Below are positions 40,665-50,562 of a stretch of 64,000 nt of DNA, piece after piece. The notes below the pieces were generated by a model that did no database searches, was not told the origin of the DNA, and saw nothing but the letters and a program-made list of their open reading frames with translations. The stretch's first letter is position 1; each line of letters starts with the position of its first letter. This DNA is from Microcoleus sp. FACHB-1515 (GTDB lineage: Bacteria; Cyanobacteriota; Cyanobacteriia; Elainellales; Elainellaceae): the NCBI RefSeq assembly GCF_014696105.1, contig NZ_JACJPO010000030.1:1-64000 (forward strand), read 5' to 3'. Made by a program: the position numbers and the translations under genes.

Positions 40665-42311
40665 TCACGTAGATTCAACGGTTGGCCGTGAGATGCTTCG
40701 CGATCGCCGCAGGTGTTCCAGCCGAGCCGCTTGCGCCGCTGTCGGCAAACCCAGATCTTCCAGAATCCCCAAAGCGGCGTATTCTCCGGTTTCACACGCG
40801 CCATCCATGTAGCCTTGGGCGGCGTAGGAGCAGTGTTCGCCCGCAAACCAAATGTTGCCGATGCGTTCACCTTCTGCCCCGCCGATCGATGTCCACTGAC
40901 CGACGCGATAGGCAGAATACGACCCTTGCTGATACGGTTCGCCTGCCCAAAATGCACGGACTGCCCGCCCGCGATCGACCTGTTCTAGACCGGGAAAAAT
41001 TGAGTCAAGCTGGCGGCTAAGCAGTTGAGCGTGACTTTCAGGATCGCCTGCACCCAGTTCAATTCCGGCCTGTCCGCCGCGCAAATCCGTCAGCCATGCG
41101 GTCGGGCTGGACTGGTAGCGGGCACTTTCCCAGGTATTTTGGAACGGCAGATCCGAGTAAATACTGGCAGTTGAGCCATAGCGCGATCGCCACAGTCGCT
41201 CTTGAAAAGGAACGGCCAGTTTGCTGCTGGTTCCGTAGCCAAGCTGGTCGATCGATCGCCGCTTGACCGGAGACATTTCAACCGCCAGATCGATTTGGCG
41301 CAAAACGGGGAAAGGCACAGTCAGCAAGATGCGATCGTAAGTCCGCGCCTGATTGATGCCGTCTTGCCGCAGGCTGACTCGATAGCCGCCGTCCGCTCGC
41401 GCTCGAATCGATTCGAGAACAGTTCCCGTTTCGATGTACGGACTGAGGCGATCGGCCAGAGCGCGAGGAATGCGATCGTTGCCGCCGATCACGTGATAGC
41501 GCTCGTCACTGATGCCGTAGGTACTCCAGCCGCCGATTTCTGTGCCGATTAAAAACAGCAGATTCAGGCAGGATTGTTCCTCAATCTCCATCCCCATTTC
41601 GGTCACGTAGGCGACGCGGATTAGTTCGCGCAGCGTCGGGCTGATTGACGTGGAATCGAGATAATCGGCCAGCGACAGCCGATCGAGCCGCATCGCTGCC
41701 GGACTGGGATGATGGTAAGTAATTTTTTCATCGGGCGCGATCGATTCCAAGTCTCGAAGAATCTGTGCGGCCAGCGGCTTGAACTCTTCCGCGATCGTGC
41801 GATGGCTGACGTGATTGCCGCGAATGTAGAACACTTCCGGAATCAAGCCTCGGTCTGCCGATCGCAAATCGGCCATTTCTAAGTTAAGCTCAGCCGCGAT
41901 CGATCGAATATGCACATGGGCGCTATCGATGAATTCGCCGCCCAGTTCTACCACTCCAGGCGCATCGGGCACATTCGTCAAACTGCTCATGCGGCCACCG
42001 ACGCGATGGCTCGCCTCCACAATGTCGATCGGCACTCCAGCTTGATGCAGACGATAGGCGGCAGTCAGTCCGGCAATTCCGGCTCCCACAATCAGCACTT
42101 TCGGAATCGGCTGAGCGCGAGCGATCGAGGGAAAAGCGGTGTTGAGCGCGATCGCCCCTGCCAGAACGCTACTACTTTGCAGCAGTCGGCGGCGCGATAA
42201 ACGTTCGTTCAGCCAACCTTGAGCTTCTGCGGTTGAAGTCTCAAGCTGTTGGGAAATTTGGGCGGTTTTGTAGCTTAAACGCAGTAAATCAAGTAGTCCA
42301 TTCCGCGACAT
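40665..42311 (-). CDS. Tat-exported flavin amine oxidase
   Basis: 548 residues. A twin-arginine signal (LSRRRLLQSSSVLAGAIAL, about 38-56) predicts export with bound FAD. KVLIVGAGIAGLTAAYRLHQAG (about 71-92) is the dinucleotide motif, followed by EASHRVGGRM. The C-terminal GNIWFAGEHCSYAAQGYMDGA is the FAD-contact motif of the monoamine/L-amino acid oxidase family. It would oxidise an amine or amino acid in the periplasm, releasing ammonia and hydrogen peroxide; the substrate is unknown. It is the last gene of the minus-strand nitrogen region but 300 bases separate it from the next. Confidence 0.85.
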   Translation of the reverse strand: MSRNGLLDLLRLSYKTAQISQQLETSTAEAQGWLNERLSRRRLLQSSSVLAGAIALNTAFPSIARAQPIPKVLIVGAGIAGLTAAYRLHQAGVPIDIVEASHRVGGRMSSLTNVPDAPGVVELGGEFIDSAHVHIRSIAAELNLEMADLRSADRGLIPEVFYIRGNHVSHRTIAEEFKPLAAQILRDLESIAPDEKITYHHPSPAAMRLDRLSLADYLDSTSISPTLRELIRVAYVTEMGMEIEEQSCLNLLFLIGTEIGGWSTYGISDERYHVIGGNDRIPRALADRLSPYIETGTVLESIRARADGGYRVSLRQDGINQARTYDRILLTVPFPVLRQIDLAVEMSPVKRRSIDQLGYGTSSKLAVPFQERLWRSRYGSTASIYSDLPFQNTWESARYQSSPTAWLTDLRGGQAGIELGAGDPESHAQLLSRQLDSIFPGLEQVDRGRAVRAFWAGEPYQQGSYSAYRVGQWTSIGGAEGERIGNIWFAGEHCSYAAQGYMDGACETGEYAALGILEDLGLPTAAQAARLEHLRRSRSISRPTVEST

Positions 42312-42614: not shown

Positions 42615-43031
42615 CTAGCCTAACTCGTCTGCTGCCTGGGAGTCACGCGACTGACGCCAGCCCACATAAGCCCGCCAGCCGCCCCACTCGGTAATTTCTC
42701 GCTCATCTTCACACAAAATCGCTTCGCCCAACACACCCAAGACGATTTCGCCATCGGCAAGGCGAACTTTGCCAATACACAATCCGGGCGGTTCCTGTTG
42801 CAAAATTGTTCCCAGTCCGGCTGGCGGCACTGCCCAGACTTCAACCGCGATCGATCGTCCGCCTTCCCGAACGCGCAGCATGGCTGGATGGCGATCCGCG
42901 ATCGACCACAACCGATAGCACGGCTCAGTTTCCGCCTCGCGCACAAATTTGGCTTCGACAGCGAGCAAATTCGGATTCAGTTCCAAGCCGCGCATCAAAG
43001 TTCCATTCACCGCAAGATGAATCGGCTGCAT
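42615..43031 (-). CDS. Stand-alone allophanate hydrolase C-terminal-like domain
   Basis: 138 residues. VNGTLMRGLELNPNLL, the later YRLWSIADRHPAMLRV, EVWAVPPAGLG and PPGLCIGKVRLADGEIVLGVLGE match the C-terminal domain of allophanate hydrolase (AtzF/DUR1-type), whose fold resembles gamma-glutamylcyclotransferase. In the full enzyme this domain follows the amidase and has been proposed to decarboxylate N-carboxycarbamate. Here the amidase half is missing, and the cysteine hydrolase gene ends 10 bases upstream, so the two are probably co-translated. Cytoplasmic. Confidence 0.75.
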   Translation of the reverse strand: MQPIHLAVNGTLMRGLELNPNLLAVEAKFVREAETEPCYRLWSIADRHPAMLRVREGGRSIAVEVWAVPPAGLGTILQQEPPGLCIGKVRLADGEIVLGVLGEAILCEDEREITEWGGWRAYVGWRQSRDSQAADELG

Positions 43032-43041
43032 GATTGCCTCG

Positions 43042-43725
43042 TCAAATTGTTGCAGGACTGGCGGCCAAAGCAGCCAAAACAGCCTCAGATGAGCTTGTCC
43101 AGCCGATGATGCCGCCTTGGGCGCGGAGCATTTCGATCGTCACCCGCTTGAATTCGGGGAAGTAGCTTTCGGTGCAGTCCTCGACCAAGAGGCATTCGTA
43201 GCCGCGATCGTTCGCCTCGCGCATCGTCGTTTGCACACAAACCTCAGTCGTCACGCCCGTAAACAGCAGATGCGTAATTCCACGCGATCGCAGAATTTCC
43301 GACAGTGGAGTTGCATAGAATGCGCCTTTTCCCGGTTTGTGAATCACAATTTCTCCAGGCAGCGGAGCAAGTTCTGAAATGATGTCGTTTCCGGGTTCGC
43401 CTTTGATCAAAATGCGACCCATTGCCGATCGATCGCCAATTCGCAAGCTGCCATTACCGCGATCAAGTTTCGACGGTGGACAGTCGGACAAATCCGGCTG
43501 ATGACATTCGATCGTGTGAATGATTGGCAACTGCAATTCGCGGAATCGATCGAGCAGTGTTTTCAAAGTGGGGACGATCGATTGCAGCCGAGTGACATCA
43601 TTTCCTAATGCGTCTCCAAATCCACCAGGCTCTAAAAAATCACGCTGCATGTCGATAATTACCAGCGCAACCTGACTGAATGCTGGCAGTTTGTAATCAT
43701 AAGGTTGAGCAGAAATTGTCACCAT
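43042..43725 (-). CDS. Isochorismatase-family cysteine hydrolase (amidase)
   Basis: About 228 residues from the ATG at 43725; an upstream extension to 43839 would overlap the LysE gene. [17 protein letters not shown] holds the catalytic Asp, [10 protein letters not shown] the family loop, and [27 protein letters not shown] the nucleophilic Cys after the cis-peptide (VTTEVC). The sequence is clearly related to the biuret hydrolase at 46133 (shared [17 protein letters not shown] and KPGKG-FYAT). Family members hydrolyse C-N bonds in biuret, ureidoacrylate, nicotinamide or carbamoylsarcosine. The small neighbour downstream and the exporter upstream (5 bases) point to one operon. Confidence 0.85.
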
Positions 43726-43730
43726 ATTGT

Positions 43731-44366
43731 CTAGTCTTTGCTTGATCCGGCAAATGCAGTTGTTAAACCTAATCCCAGATAGACGCTGCCGCTGAAATAG
43801 CGCTGAGCGCGAAGAAAGCGAAGATTTCCTCTCAGCCACTGGCCGATCGATCCGGCAATCAGCGCATAAAGTCCGTCGCTGACTGTGGCGATCGCGACAA
43901 ACAAACAGCCGAGAATCAGAATTTGTGAAACGGCTGAATCTTGAGAGCGATCGACAAACTGAGGCAGAAACGCAAAATAGAACAGCGCGACTTTTGGATT
44001 GAGAATATTGACGACGACCCCTTGAAAGAAAATGCGTTTCAGGCTGTCTGATTCGACGGGGCGATTGGGCTGAACTTCTTCACGAGTCAGCAGTGTACGA
44101 ATGCCAAGATAAATCAAATAGGCTGCACCCAAATATTTGATGATGCTAAATGCGATCGCCGATGACATCAGCAGCGCAGAAAGCCCAAACGCAGCGGCAG
44201 CGATGTGAAAGAAATTGGCAAATTCAATTCCCAACATCGAAACAATTCCGGCCAAACGACCTTGATTGATGCTTCTAGCAACAATGTAAAGAACGGCGGG
44301 ACCAGGAACGATCGCGATCGCAAAACTGGCGGCAGCAAATATTAGTAAGGTTGATAATTCTGGCAT
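43731..44366 (-). CDS. LysE/RhtB-family amino acid exporter
   Basis: 211 residues with six predicted spans. The family motif [23 protein letters not shown] (about 16-38) and [22 protein letters not shown] follow the LysE/RhtB pattern. Usually exports amino acids or analogues. The stop is 5 bases before the hydrolase start, so they belong to one unit; in this context it might expel a toxic intermediate or surplus amino compound. That role is inference. Confidence 0.87.
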
Positions 44367-44455
44367 GGGTTTCCTGTTGGTTTATCTGTTGATCAATTAA
44401 AGCTATTTCATTCTGCGCTGGCTTGCCCTGAACTGAAGTTCGGGCTAAAAGCTGA

Positions 44456-44538
44456 AGTCCGTTAAAACGGACTGAGAGGGCGATCGCAACCTGTTTGAAC
44501 AGGTTTTCGCTTTCAGCCTGAAATTTATTTCAAGGCTG
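44456..44538. repeat. Cluster of three short palindromes
   Basis: AGTCCGTTAAAACGGACT (44456-44473), AACCTGTTTGAACAGGTT (44488-44505) and CAGCCTGAAATTTATTTC with AAGGCTG (44514-44538) are consecutive inverted repeats, resembling palindromic repeats found throughout filamentous cyanobacterial genomes. They lie between the ABC ATPase gene and lysE on the minus strand and may stop or stabilise the transcript. Confidence 0.6.
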
Positions 44539-44566
44539 TATTGCGAGAATGAAATAACCCTTCTGA

Positions 44567-46117
44567 TTAATGTCCGGCCATTGCGTGACCGATCGCCGCA
44601 AAATCTGCTTTGTCTGTCAAACTTTCGTAGGCAAATTGGCCGCCGCTGATCACGAGAATGCGATCGCTTAACTTCAACAATTCGTCTAAATCTTCGCTGA
44701 CCAATAAAACCGCAACGCCGCGATTGCGAGCGGCAATAATTTGCCCGTGAATGAATTCAACGGCAGCAAAATCAAGGCCAAAACAGGGATTCGCGGCGAT
44801 TAGCAAATTGATTTCATTGGAGGAAAATTCGCGGGCGAGGACGGTTCTTTGCACGTTGCCGCCGGACAAGTTGCCGACGGGCGTTTCGGGTGACGGCGTT
44901 TTCACGGAGAACTGGGTGATTAAGCTTTGCGCCATCTGGCGGATCGCTTGGAGGATGAGCAGAACGCCTTTGGCCTGCGGGGGGCGATCGAACGTCCGCA
45001 AGGCCATGTTTTCCGCCACGCTCATGTGGGGAACGCAGGCATTTCGCAAGGGTTCTTCTGGCAGCGCAAAAACGCGATGCTGGCGCATTTCGGCGCGAGT
45101 GGCGCGGTAGGGCTGGCCGTTGACGAGAACCTGTCCCTGTGTGGCTTCGCGCTGTCCGGCCAAGACTTCGACCAGTTCGCGCTGGCCGTTGCCGGAAATT
45201 CCCGCGATGCCGACGACTTCGCCGCTGTGGACGGTGAACGTCACGCCTTTGACGGCTTCGAGGCCGTTGTCTTTGTTGGCGTGGAGCGATCGAACTTCGA
45301 GGACGGGTTTGGTTTGCAGGTGCGCGACTTTTTCGACGGCTTGGGGATCGCCTCTGTCGCCCATCATCATTTCGGCCATGTCGCTAACCGTAAGATCTTT
45401 GACAGCTCCGCTTCCGGCAAATTTGCCTTTCCGCAAGACGGTAATTTCGTCCGCAAAGGCCATCACCTCGCGAAACTTGTGCGAAATCATCAAGACGCTG
45501 AGTTTGCCCTCATTCACCTGTTCGCGCAGCAGTCCCAGCACCTCATCGGCTTCTTGCGGCGTCAGCACCGAAGTCGGCTCATCCAGAATCAAAATGCGGC
45601 TGTGTAAGTAGATCTGCTTCAGAATCTCCAGCTTTTGCTTTTGTCCCGCTGCAAGCTGGGCGATCGGCACATCCAGGGGAACCTGAAACGGCGCGGTCGT
45701 CATGAATGCCCGCAGTCCGTCCATTTCCTGTTTCCAGTTGATCAAATTCGGACTGTCGAAGCGCGACAAAACTAGATTTTCAGCCACCGTCATGGCCGGA
45801 ACCGAGGTGAAATGCTGATACACCATGCCGATTCCGTATTTGTGGGCATCGCGGGGGGAGTCGATCGCCACCGTCTGCCCGTCAATTTTTACCTCGCCGG
45901 ATGTCGGCGCATAAAAGCCCATCACGCACTTGACGAGCGTACTTTTGCCCGCGCCGTTTTCGCCCAGCAAAGCGTGAAAGCTTCCGGGTTTGAGCGTCAT
46001 CGAAACCGAATCGAGCGCAGCCAGCGAGCCAAACTGCTTCGTCATGTTGACGATCGCCAGTTCGGGCGGCGGCAAAATCGTGACAGTAGGCGATTGGATG
46101 GGGTCGATCGCAGTCAT
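44567..46117 (-). CDS. Double ABC ATPase of a BMP/nucleoside-type transporter
   Basis: 516 residues with two nucleotide-binding domains in tandem. The first has Walker A LGENGAGKSTLVKC (about 53-66), AAGQKQKLEILKQIY and Walker B ILILDEPTSVLTPQE. The second (from about 270) has the degenerate Walker A GISGNGQRELVEVLAG and LSGGNVQRTVLAREF. This is the RbsA/YufO arrangement of importers for sugars and purine nucleosides. With the two permeases and the BMP lipoprotein it completes one importer. The biuret hydrolase gene ends 15 bases upstream, so the hydrolase is embedded in the transporter operon. Confidence 0.93.
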   Translation of the reverse strand: MTAIDPIQSPTVTILPPPELAIVNMTKQFGSLAALDSVSMTLKPGSFHALLGENGAGKSTLVKCVMGFYAPTSGEVKIDGQTVAIDSPRDAHKYGIGMVYQHFTSVPAMTVAENLVLSRFDSPNLINWKQEMDGLRAFMTTAPFQVPLDVPIAQLAAGQKQKLEILKQIYLHSRILILDEPTSVLTPQEADEVLGLLREQVNEGKLSVLMISHKFREVMAFADEITVLRKGKFAGSGAVKDLTVSDMAEMMMGDRGDPQAVEKVAHLQTKPVLEVRSLHANKDNGLEAVKGVTFTVHSGEVVGIAGISGNGQRELVEVLAGQREATQGQVLVNGQPYRATRAEMRQHRVFALPEEPLRNACVPHMSVAENMALRTFDRPPQAKGVLLILQAIRQMAQSLITQFSVKTPSPETPVGNLSGGNVQRTVLAREFSSNEINLLIAANPCFGLDFAAVEFIHGQIIAARNRGVAVLLVSEDLDELLKLSDRILVISGGQFAYESLTDKADFAAIGHAMAGH

Positions 46118-46132
46118 GGCAGTTAGAAGAAA

Positions 46133-46813
46133 TTAGGGTTGAATGGCAGAAATCACCGCAGCGGAATTTGCGATCGCACCAAACACTCCACCCTGCATCG
46201 TCACCATCTTCAGGGCGGCGAGGTGGTTGCCGTAGTCGGTCGCTCCGGTGCAGTCGGACAAAATCAGGCATTCGTAGCCGCGATCGTTCGCATCGCGCAT
46301 CGTCGTGTGTACACAAACATCGGTCGTGATCCCCGTCAAAATCAAGTTTTGAATGCCGCGCAGCTTCAAAATCATGTCGAGATCGGTTGCGTAGAACGAG
46401 CCTTTTCCCGGTTTGTCGATCACAGGTTCACCGGGCAACGGTGCGAGTTCAGGAATAATTTCCCATCCCGGTTCACCCCGGACGAGAATTTTGCCGCAAG
46501 GTCCGGGATCGCCAATCCCCGCGCCGATTTGCCGCGATCGCCACCGCTTATTTTCCGGCAGATCGGCCAAGTCGGGTCGATGCCCTTCGCGGGTATGCAT
46601 GATGTGGAAGTTTTGCGATCGCATCACCTCCAAAAGTCGTTGCAGCGGGGCGATCGGGGCGCGGGTGAGCGATAGATCGTAGCCCATCTGATCCACGTAG
46701 CCGCCCCTGCCGCAAAAATCGATTTGCATATCGATCACGATCAGGGCGGTGTTTTCGGGACGGAGATCGCCGTTAAACGGATATTTGTACGGTTCTGATT
46801 CGATGTAGCGCAT
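46133..46813 (-). CDS. biuH: Biuret amidohydrolase-like cysteine hydrolase
   Basis: About 226 residues from the ATG at 46813. The sequence follows the rhizobial biuret hydrolase I remember almost throughout: [80 protein letters not shown] and [20 protein letters not shown], plus [20 protein letters not shown]. The catalytic Asp (IDMQ), Lys and Cys (TDVC) are present. Biuret hydrolase makes allophanate and ammonia from biuret in s-triazine degradation. Position inside the transporter operon suggests the imported compound is its substrate. It could instead act on a related ureide. Confidence 0.75.
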
Positions 46814-46871
46814 GAGGAGGAGGTGCAAGTAGAAAACCCGGAGAAATGAGAGGTTGCAATTCCTGTTGGTT

Positions 46872-47798
46872 CTAAGTGTCGGTTCCGAGTGCGCCCGGTG
46901 CGCCTGTGAGGGTGCGCTTGGGGGAGCAGGTAAAAATCATGATCGCCAGAGTCAAAATATAAGGTGCAGCATTAAACAAGTAGTAGCCTTGCTCGATGCC
47001 AACGGATTGCAGGGCAGGGCCGATCGCCTGCGCCCCACCAAACAGCAGCGACGCCCCCAAGCACTGCATCGGATTCCATCGGGCAAAAATCACCAGCGCA
47101 ACGGCCATCAAGCCCTGTCCGCTCGATATCCGCTCTGTCCAAACGCCCGGATAGTAAAGCGACAAAGATGCGCCGCCAATTCCGGCAAGGAAGCTGCCGA
47201 TCGCCACGCTAATCAGCCGCACCTTGAAAATCGACACGCCCATCGCCCGCGCCGCATCCGGACTATCCCCGACCGCACGAATAAACAAACCCCAGCGCGT
47301 CGATCGAAAGAACCACTGCATCAAGGGAGCGATCGCCACGCCCAACAAAAACAGCGGACTAATCTGCAAAGCGGCCTGCAAAGCGGGAGCCGTTCCGCCG
47401 CCTGCGAGATCGATCGTCGGCAACTGCGGCGCGGACGGCTGAATAAACGGCTTGCCAAAGAAAAATGCGATGCCGCTGCCAAAAATAATCATCGCGATCC
47501 CAACCGCGACATCGTTGACTCTGGGCTGCTGCGACAGCCAACCGTGAATCAATCCGAGCAAAATTCCCGCAAATCCCGCTGCCAGAACGCCCAACCAAGG
47601 CGATCCCGTCAGATAGGACACGGCGTAAGCGCTCATCGCCCCAGTCAGCAACGTTCCCTCTAATCCGAGGTTGATTTTGCCGCTTTTTTCAGTCAGGCAT
47701 TCGCCCAAACTGACGAATAAAAAGGGAGTGCCGCCGCGCATCGTTCCGGCTGCGATCGCTAAGGGCACACCCCACCAACCAATTGCTTCTGCCGTCAT
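46872..47798 (-). CDS. ABC transporter permease (second) of the BMP-type system
   Basis: 308 residues from the ATG at 47798, which has GGAG upstream. About eight to ten membrane spans; [18 protein letters not shown] is the conserved 'N.G.EG' signature of the branched-chain/ribose/nucleoside permease family (BPD_transp_2). It pairs with the permease at 47996. A MITE (47848-47983) lies between the two genes and may affect read-through. Confidence 0.92.
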
Positions 47799-47847
47799 CA
47801 CTTCTCCTTTGGACGTTAAATTCAGGATTCGGGTGTTACATAACCTC

Positions 47848-47983
47848 TAGGGTGTGTTTTAACTCACGATCCTCCCCAGCCCTCCTTGAGAAGGAGGGAG
47901 CCGAACCACCGCTCAAAGTCCGGGTTCTCAAGGGGGATCTCCACAAGCAATGCCATCACGAAAGGCTTTTCAAACACGCTCTA
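47848..47983. mobile_element. MITE, TAGGGTGTGTTTTCAAA family, copy 3
   Basis: 136 bases, with left end TAGGGTGTGTTTTAACTC and right end CTTTTCAAACACGCTCTA, TA at both ends. Interior contains CCTCCTTGAGAAGGAGG and CAAGGGGGATC, giving a strong hairpin. It sits 12 bases past the stop of one permease and 50 bases before the next, inside the transporter operon. Confidence 0.7.
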
Positions 47984-47995
47984 ATCCCTTACCCC

Positions 47996-49108
47996 TCAAG
48001 AAACCACGATCGATTCTTGCCCCGGACTTGTCGGCGGTTCGGGCGGCGCGACCATTGCGGGCTTTTCTTTGAAGAACTCGAAGCGGCCATAGAGCGATTC
48101 GCTAAACAGGATGACGAGGAAGACCAAGCCTTGAAAGACGAGGACGGTGGCATCGGGGAGGTTGTGCGATCGCTGCAAAATGCCGCCGCTAGCAAGAATG
48201 CCGCCAACTAAGACGGAGACGATCGCCGCCGCCAGCGGATTATGCCGCGCCACGAATGCGACCAGAATGCCGCCGTAGCCATAGCCCACGTTCAGCGATT
48301 CGTTGGCTGCGCCCTGCACGGCTGCAACTTCCACCATTCCGGCCAAGCCTGCACAGGAACCCGCCAGGAAGCAGACGATGACGGTGAGTTTGCCGACGGG
48401 CAATCCGGCGATTCGGGCAGCGCGGATGTTGCCGCCTGCGGTTCGAGCCGCGAAACCGAACGTGGTGCGCTGCATCAAAAAGTAGGCAATCACGCAGGCA
48501 ATCAGACCATACAGCAAGCCCCAGTGAACGCGAGTGCCGGGAATCGATCCGAGCATGACTGCTTCGGGTAGGGGAAACGTTGAGGGCTTGTTGAGCGAAC
48601 TGGGGTCTTTCATTGGGCCGCCGACCAGGTGATTGAGCAGCGCGATCGCCACATAGTTCAACAGCAAACTGCTAATCGTCTCGTTCACCGCGCGGTAGTG
48701 CCGCAACGCGCCCGCGATCGCAATCCACAAGCCGCCCGCCACGAGTCCGGCGATCGCCATGCCAATTTGCACCATGCCAGCCGGAAGACTGGCCGACAGC
48801 GGCAGACCGATCGCGATCGCCGCCAGTCCGCCCACCACCAAAGCGCCCTCGTTGCCAATAATCACCAGTCCCAAGCGAGCAGGCAGAGCCGTACACAACG
48901 CGCACAGCATCAGGGGAGCCGCCCGAATCAAGCTATTTTGAAACGTACTCCATTTGCCAAAAGCCGCCTTCCAAATCGACGCATACACGCCAAACGGATT
49001 CGCCCCGGCAAACGCACAAAAGATGCCAAACAGAATTAAAGAAACCAGCAGTGCGGCGATCGGCAGGGCGATCGACTCTAAGGCTTTGCGCGATCGATAG
49101 CTGAGCAT
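47996..49108 (-). CDS. ABC transporter permease (first) of the BMP-type system
   Basis: 370 residues from the ATG at 49108 (an upstream extension to 49201 is Pro/Ser-rich and unlike the family). About ten membrane spans. LGLVIIGNEGALVVGGLAAI is the NEG signature of this permease class, and FAARTAGGNIRAARIAGLPVGKL the cytoplasmic ATPase-contact loop. The C-terminal end is a short Pro/Glu tail. It follows the binding-protein gene after 134 bases. Confidence 0.92.
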   Translation of the reverse strand: MLSYRSRKALESIALPIAALLVSLILFGIFCAFAGANPFGVYASIWKAAFGKWSTFQNSLIRAAPLMLCALCTALPARLGLVIIGNEGALVVGGLAAIAIGLPLSASLPAGMVQIGMAIAGLVAGGLWIAIAGALRHYRAVNETISSLLLNYVAIALLNHLVGGPMKDPSSLNKPSTFPLPEAVMLGSIPGTRVHWGLLYGLIACVIAYFLMQRTTFGFAARTAGGNIRAARIAGLPVGKLTVIVCFLAGSCAGLAGMVEVAAVQGAANESLNVGYGYGGILVAFVARHNPLAAAIVSVLVGGILASGGILQRSHNLPDATVLVFQGLVFLVILFSESLYGRFEFFKEKPAMVAPPEPPTSPGQESIVVS

Positions 49109-49242
49109 AGAAGTGTTGGGGATTGGGGATCGGGGATCGGCCAGAGCTTGGAGGGAGCGATCGGGTGTGGGCGATCGGGTTTCAGGCTGTTTTGCTTTCA
49201 AGCTGTTTTGCCGACACCTGATGCCCGCCGCCCGCCACCCCT

Positions 49243-50430
49243 TTAACTTCCCACTGACCCAATCACACCCTCCACCAAATAGTTCATCGCTTCCAGCTTC
49301 GGGTCTTGCTGCTTCAGGTCTTGCCCTGCTGGAACGACGACATTGCCTTTGTTGTCTTGCAGGCCGCCTTTGTAAATCACCAAGCTGCCGTCCATGAATC
49401 CGGCTTTGGCGGCGTCGGCGGCGGCTTTGGCTTCCGCACTAACGGCAGAACCGTAGGCGGAGACTTTGCAGAAGCCGTCTTTGAGGCCGCCGCGCAGCAG
49501 ATGGGGAATGCCGCCGTCTGCCAGCGTTTTGCCCGATCGAAAATCTTCTGCCAGCCGCGAATAGATATTCGTCCAGTCCCACTCGGCTCCGGTCAGGTAG
49601 CCTTTGGGCGCAAGCGCGGCTTGATTGGCGTGATAGCCCGTGCAGAAGATGCCGCGCCGTTCCGCCGTTTCCATCACCACTTTCGGACTGTCTACGTGGC
49701 AGGTGACGACATCAATGCCCTGATCGACCATGCTGTTGACGGCTTCGGCTTCTTTAATCGGCTCTGCCCAGTTGCCCGTAAACACGACCTGCGTGGTGGC
49801 TTCGGGCTTGACGCTGCGAGCGCCCAAGGTGAAGCTGTTCACGTTTCGCAACACTTGCGGAATTGGCTTGGCGGCAACGAAGCCGAGCTTGCCAGTTTTG
49901 GAGGTCATGCCTGCGACGATACCCGCGACATATTGTGCTTCGTCAATGTAGCCAAAGTAGCTGCCGACATTTTTGGGATGCTGGCCTTCGACATACAGCC
50001 CGCCGCAGTGGAAAAACTGCACGTCTGGGTATTCCTCGGCCATTTTGAGAATGTGCGGGTCAAAGTAGCCGAAAGACGTGGGAAATAAGGCTTTTGCGCC
50101 GTCAATGTCGATCATGTTTCGCATCGTTTCGGCAACGGCGGTGGTTTCCGGTACGTTCGCTTCTTCGACCAGCTTCACCCAGCTAAATTTCTGCGCCATG
50201 CCCGCTGCACCTTCGGCATGAGCTTGGTTGTAGCCATAGTCGTCTTTGGGACCGACGTAGATGAAGCCGATCGTCATCGGCTCGTCGCCACTGCCTTCGC
50301 CGCCACCTGCTTCGGCAGTCGATCGCTCCGAAGTACATCCGGTACCAAATTGCGTGGTGAGGCCAAACGCGGTAGTGGCAAGCAGTCCCCGAATGACCTG
50401 ACGACGCGATAGGGAAAATTTTTGACTCAC
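49243..50430 (-). CDS. BMP-family substrate-binding lipoprotein
   Basis: About 395 residues from the GTG at 50430, which has GGAG seven bases upstream. The signal SRRQVIRGLLATTAFGLTTQ looks like a Tat leader, ending in GTGC (lipobox-like), so the mature protein is probably lipid-anchored at the periplasmic face. IGFIYVGPKDDYGYNQAHAEG is the BMP-family opening; AETMRNMIDIDGAKALFPTSF and VTCHVDSPKVVMETAERRGI continue it. BMP proteins bind purine nucleosides in well-studied cases; related ones serve other ligands. It should be the first gene of the operon and lies 119 bases downstream of a GTA-N8-TAC motif. Confidence 0.9.
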   Translation of the reverse strand: MSQKFSLSRRQVIRGLLATTAFGLTTQFGTGCTSERSTAEAGGGEGSGDEPMTIGFIYVGPKDDYGYNQAHAEGAAGMAQKFSWVKLVEEANVPETTAVAETMRNMIDIDGAKALFPTSFGYFDPHILKMAEEYPDVQFFHCGGLYVEGQHPKNVGSYFGYIDEAQYVAGIVAGMTSKTGKLGFVAAKPIPQVLRNVNSFTLGARSVKPEATTQVVFTGNWAEPIKEAEAVNSMVDQGIDVVTCHVDSPKVVMETAERRGIFCTGYHANQAALAPKGYLTGAEWDWTNIYSRLAEDFRSGKTLADGGIPHLLRGGLKDGFCKVSAYGSAVSAEAKAAADAAKAGFMDGSLVIYKGGLQDNKGNVVVPAGQDLKQQDPKLEAMNYLVEGVIGSVGS

Positions 50431-50548
50431 AGCTTGCTCCAAGGAACAGTAGTAAACAGGCGAACCGGAACCAGGCAAACTCAGAGGCCGGGAAACTGTC
50501 TAGGGCGATCGCTCCAGACAGCTTGAATTGCAACCTTGCATCAATCTG

Positions 50549-50562
50549 GTAAATTACACTAC
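50549..50562 (-). promoter_or_regulatory. Candidate NtcA box of the transporter operon
   Basis: On the minus strand GTAGTGTAATTTAC fits GTA-N8-TAC exactly, the binding pattern of the nitrogen regulator NtcA. It lies 119 bases upstream of the binding-protein start. No good TAN3T box is visible 20-24 bases downstream, which weakens the case. Confidence 0.45.

Follow-up and report, generated by a model that had tools for sequence, protein, structure and literature searches.

We analysed a stretch of 64,000 nucleotides from the cyanobacterium Microcoleus sp. FACHB-1515 (contig NZ_JACJPO010000030.1; hereafter the window), which carries on its minus strand what is probably a nitrogen-scavenging operon for triuret and biuret, compounds that occur as fertiliser impurities and are possible products of uric acid oxidation. 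The triuret/biuret core of this operon, comprising a BMP-type ATP-binding cassette (ABC) importer and two related hydrolases, BiuH and TrtA, is well supported. In place of the allophanate hydrolase AtzF, the operon ends in a stand-alone AH_C protein that resembles the C-terminal domain of AtzF, and this AtzF-less ending is a new variant of the triuret/biuret pathway, with its key step predicted. A first-pass annotation, made from the DNA letters and their reading frames, had proposed a locus that takes up and hydrolyses a ureide or biuret-like source of nitrogen; our results support that proposal and narrow it to triuret and biuret. The features of the locus are as follows, with genes and proteins referred to below by their lower coordinate.

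50549..50562, strand not assigned: GTAN8TAC box lying upstream of the operon, a candidate for NtcA binding (pattern scan)
49243..50478, minus strand: BMP-family substrate-binding lipoprotein, AtzT-like (PF02608, 126 bits; 6pi5, 2.2e-59)
47996..49201, minus strand: ABC permease 1 (PF02653, 106 bits; operon position kept in eight other cyanobacterial loci)
46872..47801, minus strand: ABC permease 2 (PF02653, 135 bits; position kept in the same eight loci)
46133..46828, minus strand: predicted biuret hydrolase BiuH (NF050097, 418 bits; 6azo, 1.5e-119; residue signature)
44567..46117, minus strand: double ABC ATPase of the importer (PF00005, two stretches; homologue flanked by biuH and trtA in related loci)
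43731..44366, minus strand: LysE-type translocator, between the ATPase gene and trtA (PF01810, 113 bits)
43042..43728, minus strand: predicted triuret hydrolase TrtA (6xix, 6.6e-86; residue signature)
42615..43031, minus strand: stand-alone AH_C, AtzF C-terminal-domain-like (PF21986, 143 bits, cut-off 27; 5c5z, 8.9e-43; 4gyr, 3e-12)
40665..42311, minus strand: amine oxidase (PF01593; not counted as an operon member)

A listing of open reading frames (ORFs), together with Pfam and NCBIfam searches, places all nine ORFs on the minus strand, from 50478 down to 40665, at the coordinates and in the families that the first-pass annotation had given, and the full BMP-type importer that it described is borne out by one PF02608, two PF02653 and PF00005 matches. 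Its region end at 50562 proved to be the end of the GTAN8TAC box, and the extent of gene 43042 needs correction: the listed frame opens at a GTG at 43839, overlapping the LysE gene, and homology begins only at an internal ATG at 43728, so that the coding sequence is likely 43042-43728. The start of BiuH 46133 is probably an ATG around 46813. From the binding-protein gene to the AH_C gene, neighbouring genes are separated by 41, 194, 43, 15, 200, 2 and 10 bases, with 303 further bases to the amine oxidase gene.

The two hydrolases could be told apart by model scores, solved relatives and the catalytic and second-shell residues that distinguish TrtA from BiuH (PMC7948467; BiuH residue roles also from PMC5806882). 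Both keep the catalytic D, E, K, K, C and Q in alignment. Protein 46133, flagged earlier as a close relative of biuret hydrolase, exceeds the cut-off of 370 bits of the BiuH equivalog model NF050097, finds its best solved relative in Rhizobium BiuH (6azo), and retains Asp36, Lys142, Lys145, Cys175 and Gln215 as well as the BiuH-type second shell of Y47, Y53, S147, D173, T200 and V218; it is a biuret hydrolase, with a predicted activity of converting biuret to allophanate. Protein 43042, described earlier as a second related hydrolase, reaches only 248 bits with NF050097, short of the same cut-off, and can be named more precisely. Its best solved relative is TrtA 6xix, at 291 bits, with BiuH chains at 210 bits or less (the best being 6xjm, 3.6e-61), and all six TrtA-type residues are present (F35, N41, A134, E160, Y187 and I205, in TrtA numbering); it is a triuret hydrolase, TrtA, by predicted activity. 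The full signature recurs in related loci in 36 of 40 BiuH and 41 of 43 TrtA sequences, counts in which the window is included and some genomes appear twice. The exceptions are four BiuH sequences with A for S, one TrtA with L for I, and another TrtA with gaps at both E160 and the catalytic Cys.

It is highly improbable that both enzymes act on other ureides, for instance on ureidoacrylate like RutB, and that their likeness to biuret hydrolases misleads. RutB belongs to the same superfamily and its model matches the two hydrolases at 99 and 118 bits, but these scores lie far under its cut-off of 378. Protein 46133 clears the threshold for BiuH, and all specificity residues tested fit BiuH or TrtA. 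A third isochorismatase of the window's genome (C13) was considered and set aside, being nearest to RutB, below the cut-off for that family, and different in its residues.

The operon recurs across the phylum. Among 386 genomes forming an even sample of the cyanobacteria, 13 hold a BiuH above cut-off, and all 13 also have a second match in the TrtA range (239-257 bits). The first-pass annotation had suggested a search for the same gene order in cyanobacteria; we found the six core genes (bmp, the two permease genes, biuH, the ATPase gene and trtA) together in 9 of the 13 BiuH genomes, the window's included. With E-values down to 1e-119 against a solved BiuH and the core genes together in this many genomes, the locus is not a chance finding. 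Partial loci account for the rest: G193 and G346 have only the ATPase gene and trtA beside biuH, G170 only the ATPase gene, and in G133 the contig begins inside permease 2, with no other complete core gene beside biuH. Outside the 13, genome G215 (L050) has broken biuH and AH_C genes and open trtA and ATPase genes, a state that is decay of the locus. Two insertions were also observed among relatives. In some (L038, L039, L048 and others) a formamidase gene separates permease 2 from biuH, an arrangement also seen in Proteobacteria, and a small Cupin_7 protein is encoded between the ATPase gene and trtA or after trtA (L037, L043, L045 and others), possibly serving as a carboxybiuret decarboxylase.

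The locus departs from the known operons in its ending. Protein 42615, earlier described as resembling the C-terminal part of allophanate hydrolase, consists of that domain only, scoring 109 and 104 bits with two AtzF models whose cut-offs are 487 and 511. The first-pass annotation was right that the window holds no AtzF, and our profile search of the whole genome found none above cut-off. Its suggestion that, with AtzF missing, the route may have another ending has become the most interesting point, with AH_C and no AtzF in 12 of the 13 BiuH genomes. Each of these 12 bears a stand-alone AH_C, one being that of the window and the other 11 being 63-79% identical to it, and a genome-wide search found no AtzF above cut-off in any of them; the thirteenth, G060, has an AtzF above cut-off in the form of a split amidase (659 bits) and an AH_C near urea carboxylase. 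Conversely, intact stand-alone AH_C at 62% identity or more occurs in 13 of the 386 genomes, 12 of them BiuH-positive (hypergeometric P of 9e-21, with genomes treated as independent). Further AH_C matches at 32-41% identity, comprising AtzF-type domains and a distinct second type, were left out of these counts.

The proteobacterial counterparts mostly have AtzF and no stand-alone AH_C. In ten plasmid BiuH loci, hand-picked from 198 matching records, the importer and TrtA follow the order bmp-perm-perm-biuH-ATPase-trtA in eight; AtzF lies within 9 kb in 8/10, and stand-alone AH_C in 0/10. One of the eight plasmid AtzF proteins, from Salipiger, is without the C-terminal domain, and the other seven have one.

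The AtzF C-terminal domain was reportedly described as a probable decarboxylase in a structure paper of 2013; a literature search for the intermediate proposed there found nothing. All 11 AtzF C-terminal domains that we compared (4gyr, 4iss, G060, G185 and the seven from plasmids) carry GAHL or GAHM, from which we infer that the motif is important for this domain. The AH_C of the window has NGTL in its place, as do 12/12 sequences in alignment A1, a replacement that may signal either new specificity or another function. In allophanate hydrolase itself, the N domain and the C domain work one after the other (PMC5770610).

To place AH_C among other bacteria, we scanned genome_contigs (84,980 species) and examined the best 80 of 568 AH_C relatives, selected for their similarity to stand-alone AH_C; the absence of fused AtzF among these 80 loci comes partly from that selection, and genome-wide searches are the better test. 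Four of the loci (L144, L161, L193 and L196) overlap the 13-genome set, and duplicates stayed in the residue counts. The 80 loci span cyanobacteria, Verrucomicrobia, Rokubacteria, Nitrospira, Nitrosomonas, Sneathiella and others. BiuH or TrtA is encoded nearby in 35, or 40 when importer genes are counted, and AtzE lies just downstream of AH_C in 13, one of which also has BiuH. A short ORF resembling AtzG separates AH_C from AtzE in 10 of these 13, as judged by eye against the AtzG-like protein of the window's genome, and no other amidase-signature gene was the best match in any of the 80 loci. In a tree whose supports are weak in places, the AH_C proteins linked to AtzE in cyanobacteria branch from within those linked to BiuH. 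A cupin gene is present in 16 of the 80 loci, 15 of them also with trtA; since the cupin co-occurs with AH_C and trtA, AH_C probably does not merely carry out the carboxybiuret step. Twenty of the 80 loci were hand-picked to span phyla and contexts for further searches, in which AtzF was above cut-off in 0/20 genomes and urease in 19/20.

One of the 80, L197 (Nitrospira sp. bin.260), has the operon after AllG and a carbamate-kinase-like protein (PF00696), as published for comammox Nitrospira, and the AtzF-model matches of its genome are one in the GatA range and AH_C only. Given these matches, genes published as atzF in comammox may be the AH_C protein. AH_C relatives of about 58% identity were also seen on many E. 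coli plasmids (for example H62), annotated as glutamyl-tRNA amidotransferase or hypothetical protein. The AH_C of L194, titled as a metagenome-assembled genome (MAG) of Klebsiella pneumoniae, groups with Sneathiella in the tree, and the bin is probably mislabelled.

We propose a pathway in which the AtzT-like ABC importer (49243, 47996, 46872 and 44567) would take up triuret and/or biuret, and TrtA (43042) would convert triuret to carboxybiuret with the release of one ammonia. Carboxybiuret, which has a half-life of about 20 min (PMC7948467), would lose CO2 to give biuret, either spontaneously or perhaps via the cupin in some relatives. BiuH (46133) would then yield allophanate and ammonia from biuret, AH_C (42615) would decarboxylate allophanate to urea, and the genome's urease would release the last two ammonias. 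The TrtA and BiuH steps have been shown for their families and apply to the window proteins by analogy. Allophanate and dicarboxyurea are known to decay to urea and CO2 (PMC6219798). With no AtzF and a urease present, urea is the natural exit, and we put at about even the chance that allophanate leaves through AH_C decarboxylation followed by urease. The case for AH_C as the allophanate decarboxylase is that it stands in AtzF's place, precedes AtzE elsewhere, and occurs with both trtA and a cupin in 15/80 loci. The wider proposal, that AH_C is a new allophanate (N-carboxyurea) decarboxylase for the products of BiuH and AtzEG, that cyanobacteria, Verrucomicrobia and Nitrospira use the urease route, and that some comammox Nitrospira atzF genes are AH_C, is tentative, with a chance that falls a little short of even.

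Two other roles for AH_C have to be weighed against allophanate decarboxylation. The protein could be a carboxybiuret decarboxylase, in the role of TrtB, acting right after TrtA while allophanate decays to urea unaided. The 10 bases between trtA and AH_C in the window fit this, and since all 13 BiuH genomes have a TrtA-range match, presence alone cannot separate the two tasks among them. We nevertheless consider it somewhat unlikely, as the cupin found with AH_C and trtA may fill that slot (its role is itself a guess) and AtzF and AH_C appear to replace each other. In seven of the 80 AH_C loci BiuH is present and TrtA is missing from the available sequence, although for one of the seven, L193 (G133), TrtA is on another contig; G177, conversely, has TrtA without BiuH and without AH_C. 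Where AH_C lies directly upstream of atzE, as it does in the 13 loci noted above, decarboxylation of carboxybiuret would starve AtzE.

AH_C might instead be half of a split AtzF, working in trans with an amidase-signature protein encoded elsewhere to form an allophanate hydrolase. A true split AtzF exists in G060, with its amidase beside AH_C, and the window's genome has AtzE, an AtzG-like partner and one further amidase. The G060 protein keeps GAHL, however, which the window-type AH_C does not, and G296 and G346 (100% and 99% complete) have one amidase-type match each, in the GatA score range. The Nitrospira genome G386 shows two AtzF-model matches, one in the GatA range and one AH_C. AtzE, which we rejected as a substitute for AtzF, occurs in 7/13 BiuH genomes and also in 5/11 BiuH-negative comparators. 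A split enzyme is thus quite improbable. The carbon-nitrogen hydrolase seen within the operon of some relatives was rejected as a substitute too: it is a formamidase (575 bits, cut-off 406), present in 7/80 AH_C loci, and since it also stands beside AtzF in Proteobacteria it is no stand-in for AtzF.

Several observations weigh against allophanate decarboxylation by AH_C and against the triuret/biuret assignment as a whole. The function of every protein of the locus is predicted from its sequence, and the importer's ligand is a prediction too. AH_C is without GAHL, so AtzF-type chemistry may be doubtful. AtzF is rare in cyanobacteria (13 of 308 strains in a survey, PMC6737895), and finding none in 12 genomes is close to what that rarity would give; within this phylum G060 is the single case behind the swap of AtzF and AH_C, to which the proteobacterial plasmids add. 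AH_C lies away from biuH in 4 of the 12 genomes. G233 has an intact AH_C (62%) and no BiuH; the only other AH_C genome outside the 13 is G215, with its broken copy. Twenty-eight of the 80 AH_C loci have no BiuH, TrtA, importer or AtzE nearby, some of them on short contigs and others with 20 kb of sequence, and at the plasmid loci of R. etli and Peteryoungia both AtzF and AH_C are absent within 9 kb. Urease, found in 24/24 cyanobacterial genomes checked, is present in all eight comparators negative for BiuH and AH_C as well, and being so common in cyanobacteria its presence proves little; G387, a Nitrospira MAG, is an AH_C genome with no urease above cut-off.

The importer sits apart from the nucleoside carriers that the first-pass annotation had named for the BMP family. 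The nearest solved relatives of 49243 are AtzT (6pi5), a binder of guanine and 2-hydroxyatrazine rather than of nucleosides, and then 3s99 (9.2e-50), in which a purine is modelled. BmpD (6shu, 5.4e-10), BmpA (9q1u, 2.9e-8) and TpN38(b) (4iil, 1.6e-6), which we take to be nucleoside binders, match far more weakly, and by its nearest solved relatives 49243 does not go with the PnrA/BmpA-type nucleoside importers. By eye, the protein carries a twin-arginine-type signal and a lipobox. AtzT binds guanine at 110 nM and 2-hydroxyatrazine at 2.2 uM (PMC6834077); of its seven named contacts, Tyr45, Ser97, Phe98 and Trp194 are retained in 49243, which has Gln in place of Glu165, His in place of Asn218 and Asp in place of Asn220. 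Across 30 binding proteins of these loci, Gln occurs in 27/30, His in 30/30 and Asp in 30/30 at AtzT positions 165, 218 and 220, and 3s99 carries the same His and Asp. The ligand of 49243 is likely flat and nitrogen-rich, and the operon context points to triuret or biuret.

We also considered that the importer takes a purine or a triazine, as AtzT does, with the hydrolases serving a later step on the products of intracellular purine oxidation. The ligands of the two nearest solved relatives fit this reading, and so does the retained aromatic sandwich with its Ser and Phe contacts. It is unlikely, since no ring-opening or purine-oxidising gene occurs among the nine ORFs, and Glu165, Asn218 and Asn220 are replaced in these loci, although His and Asp are shared with 3s99. 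Elsewhere in the window's genome, a second-type AH_C (G000 C52:217904-218263, L065) lies beside xdhA xanthine dehydrogenase, with relatives elsewhere in the phylum, and an AtzE (G000 C13:343857-345200, L053; 704 bits, cut-off 426) has its AtzG-like partner just upstream and stands next to leuA.

Expression of the operon is probably under nitrogen control by NtcA, whose bound consensus is GTAN8TAC. The window contains five such boxes against 2.0 expected, a number reached by 9/100 shuffles, so that its own box is weak evidence. Among 22 distinct cyanobacterial loci, however, 11 have a box in the 400 bases that precede the binding-protein gene, where about 0.13 per locus would be expected; the P of 2e-5 treats the regions as independent, with a probability of 0.125 for each. 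Boxes were present in 0/5 non-cyanobacterial upstream regions. For this count, the duplicates L144, L161 and L196 were dropped and the non-cyanobacterial L153, L176, L192, L197 and L217 set apart. No TAN3T box was found at 20-25 spacing after the window's GTAN8TAC copy.

Two neighbours that the first-pass annotation had noted, the LysE translocator and the amine oxidase, are present but were rejected as pathway members, as best matches elsewhere do not show them to be conserved in the locus: LysE is the best match of no ORF in the other loci examined, and the amine oxidase turned up a single time, with 24% identity. Large genes adjoin the operon in several cyanobacteria, possibly by coincidence. 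Those at L037:1665-5330 and L038:12774-14396 encode WD40-repeat proteins, and ORFs of L039, L042, L047 and L048 group with them by BLAST; the idea that these large upstream genes encode urea carboxylase or oxoprolinase was rejected, the two scanned being the WD40-repeat proteins. Searches of the window for RNA families at the gathering threshold and for tRNAs found none.

If these readings hold, a lineage of oxygenic phototrophs would join the likely users of triuret and biuret. There would be a second way to finish the pathway, with the small, uncharacterised AH_C family as a testable new decarboxylase, and a warning for annotation, in that 'allophanate hydrolase' would not mean AtzF where the C-terminal domain alone is present.

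The core operon is of a known kind, now in the cyanobacteria, a lineage from which it is apparently unreported. The first-pass annotation knew of no such combination in cyanobacteria, and we found no report of one, with none for triuret and with the biuret literature covered partly; in a urea-gene survey of 308 cyanobacteria, which lists allophanate hydrolase in 13 strains, the word biuret does not occur (PMC6737895). The combination itself is known from other bacteria: trtA, biuH, atzF, trtB and bmpA-nupABC are reported side by side in ammonia-oxidising bacteria, comammox Nitrospira has the same set except for trtB (PMC12625717), and trtA, biuH and atzF are described in Herbaspirillum and Rhizobium (PMC7948467). 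With the operons of ammonia oxidisers and Herbaspirillum the window shares the BMP importer, biuH and trtA; it differs in having a stand-alone AH_C in place of AtzF, and a LysE insert. In the window a GTAN8TAC box stands upstream, whereas a GntR or LysR gene neighbours the operon at several of the plasmid loci.

Protein by protein, 46133 shares its five catalytic residues and second shell with BiuH of Rhizobium leguminosarum 3841 (6azo; PMC5806882), and differs in host and in how allophanate is handled, while 43042 shares the catalytic triad and all six TrtA-type residues with TrtA of Herbaspirillum sp. BH-1 (6xix), again in a different host; both window proteins are known from sequence alone. 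Like AtzT of Pseudomonas sp. ADP (6pi5; PMC6834077), 49243 is of the BMP family and keeps the Tyr45/Trp194 sandwich, Ser97, Phe98 and Asn169, unlike it in the Gln, His and Asp described above. AH_C resembles AtzH (DUF3225) of the atzDGEHF operon, a proposed N-carboxy-urea decarboxylase (PMC6219798), in its proposed role; the two belong to unrelated families, and AH_C occupies loci where AtzH or AtzF would be expected. Lastly, the 'allophanate hydrolase-related protein' of E. coli CFT073, identical in sequence to 5c5z over the range compared, is a stand-alone AH_C with the same NGTLMRGLELN motif as 42615. Its gene run (L222:13190-20403) includes a BiuH-like cysteine hydrolase, which at 280 bits stays under the cut-off; where the window has a BMP importer, the run has allFGH-like genes, carbamate kinase and a cytosine permease.

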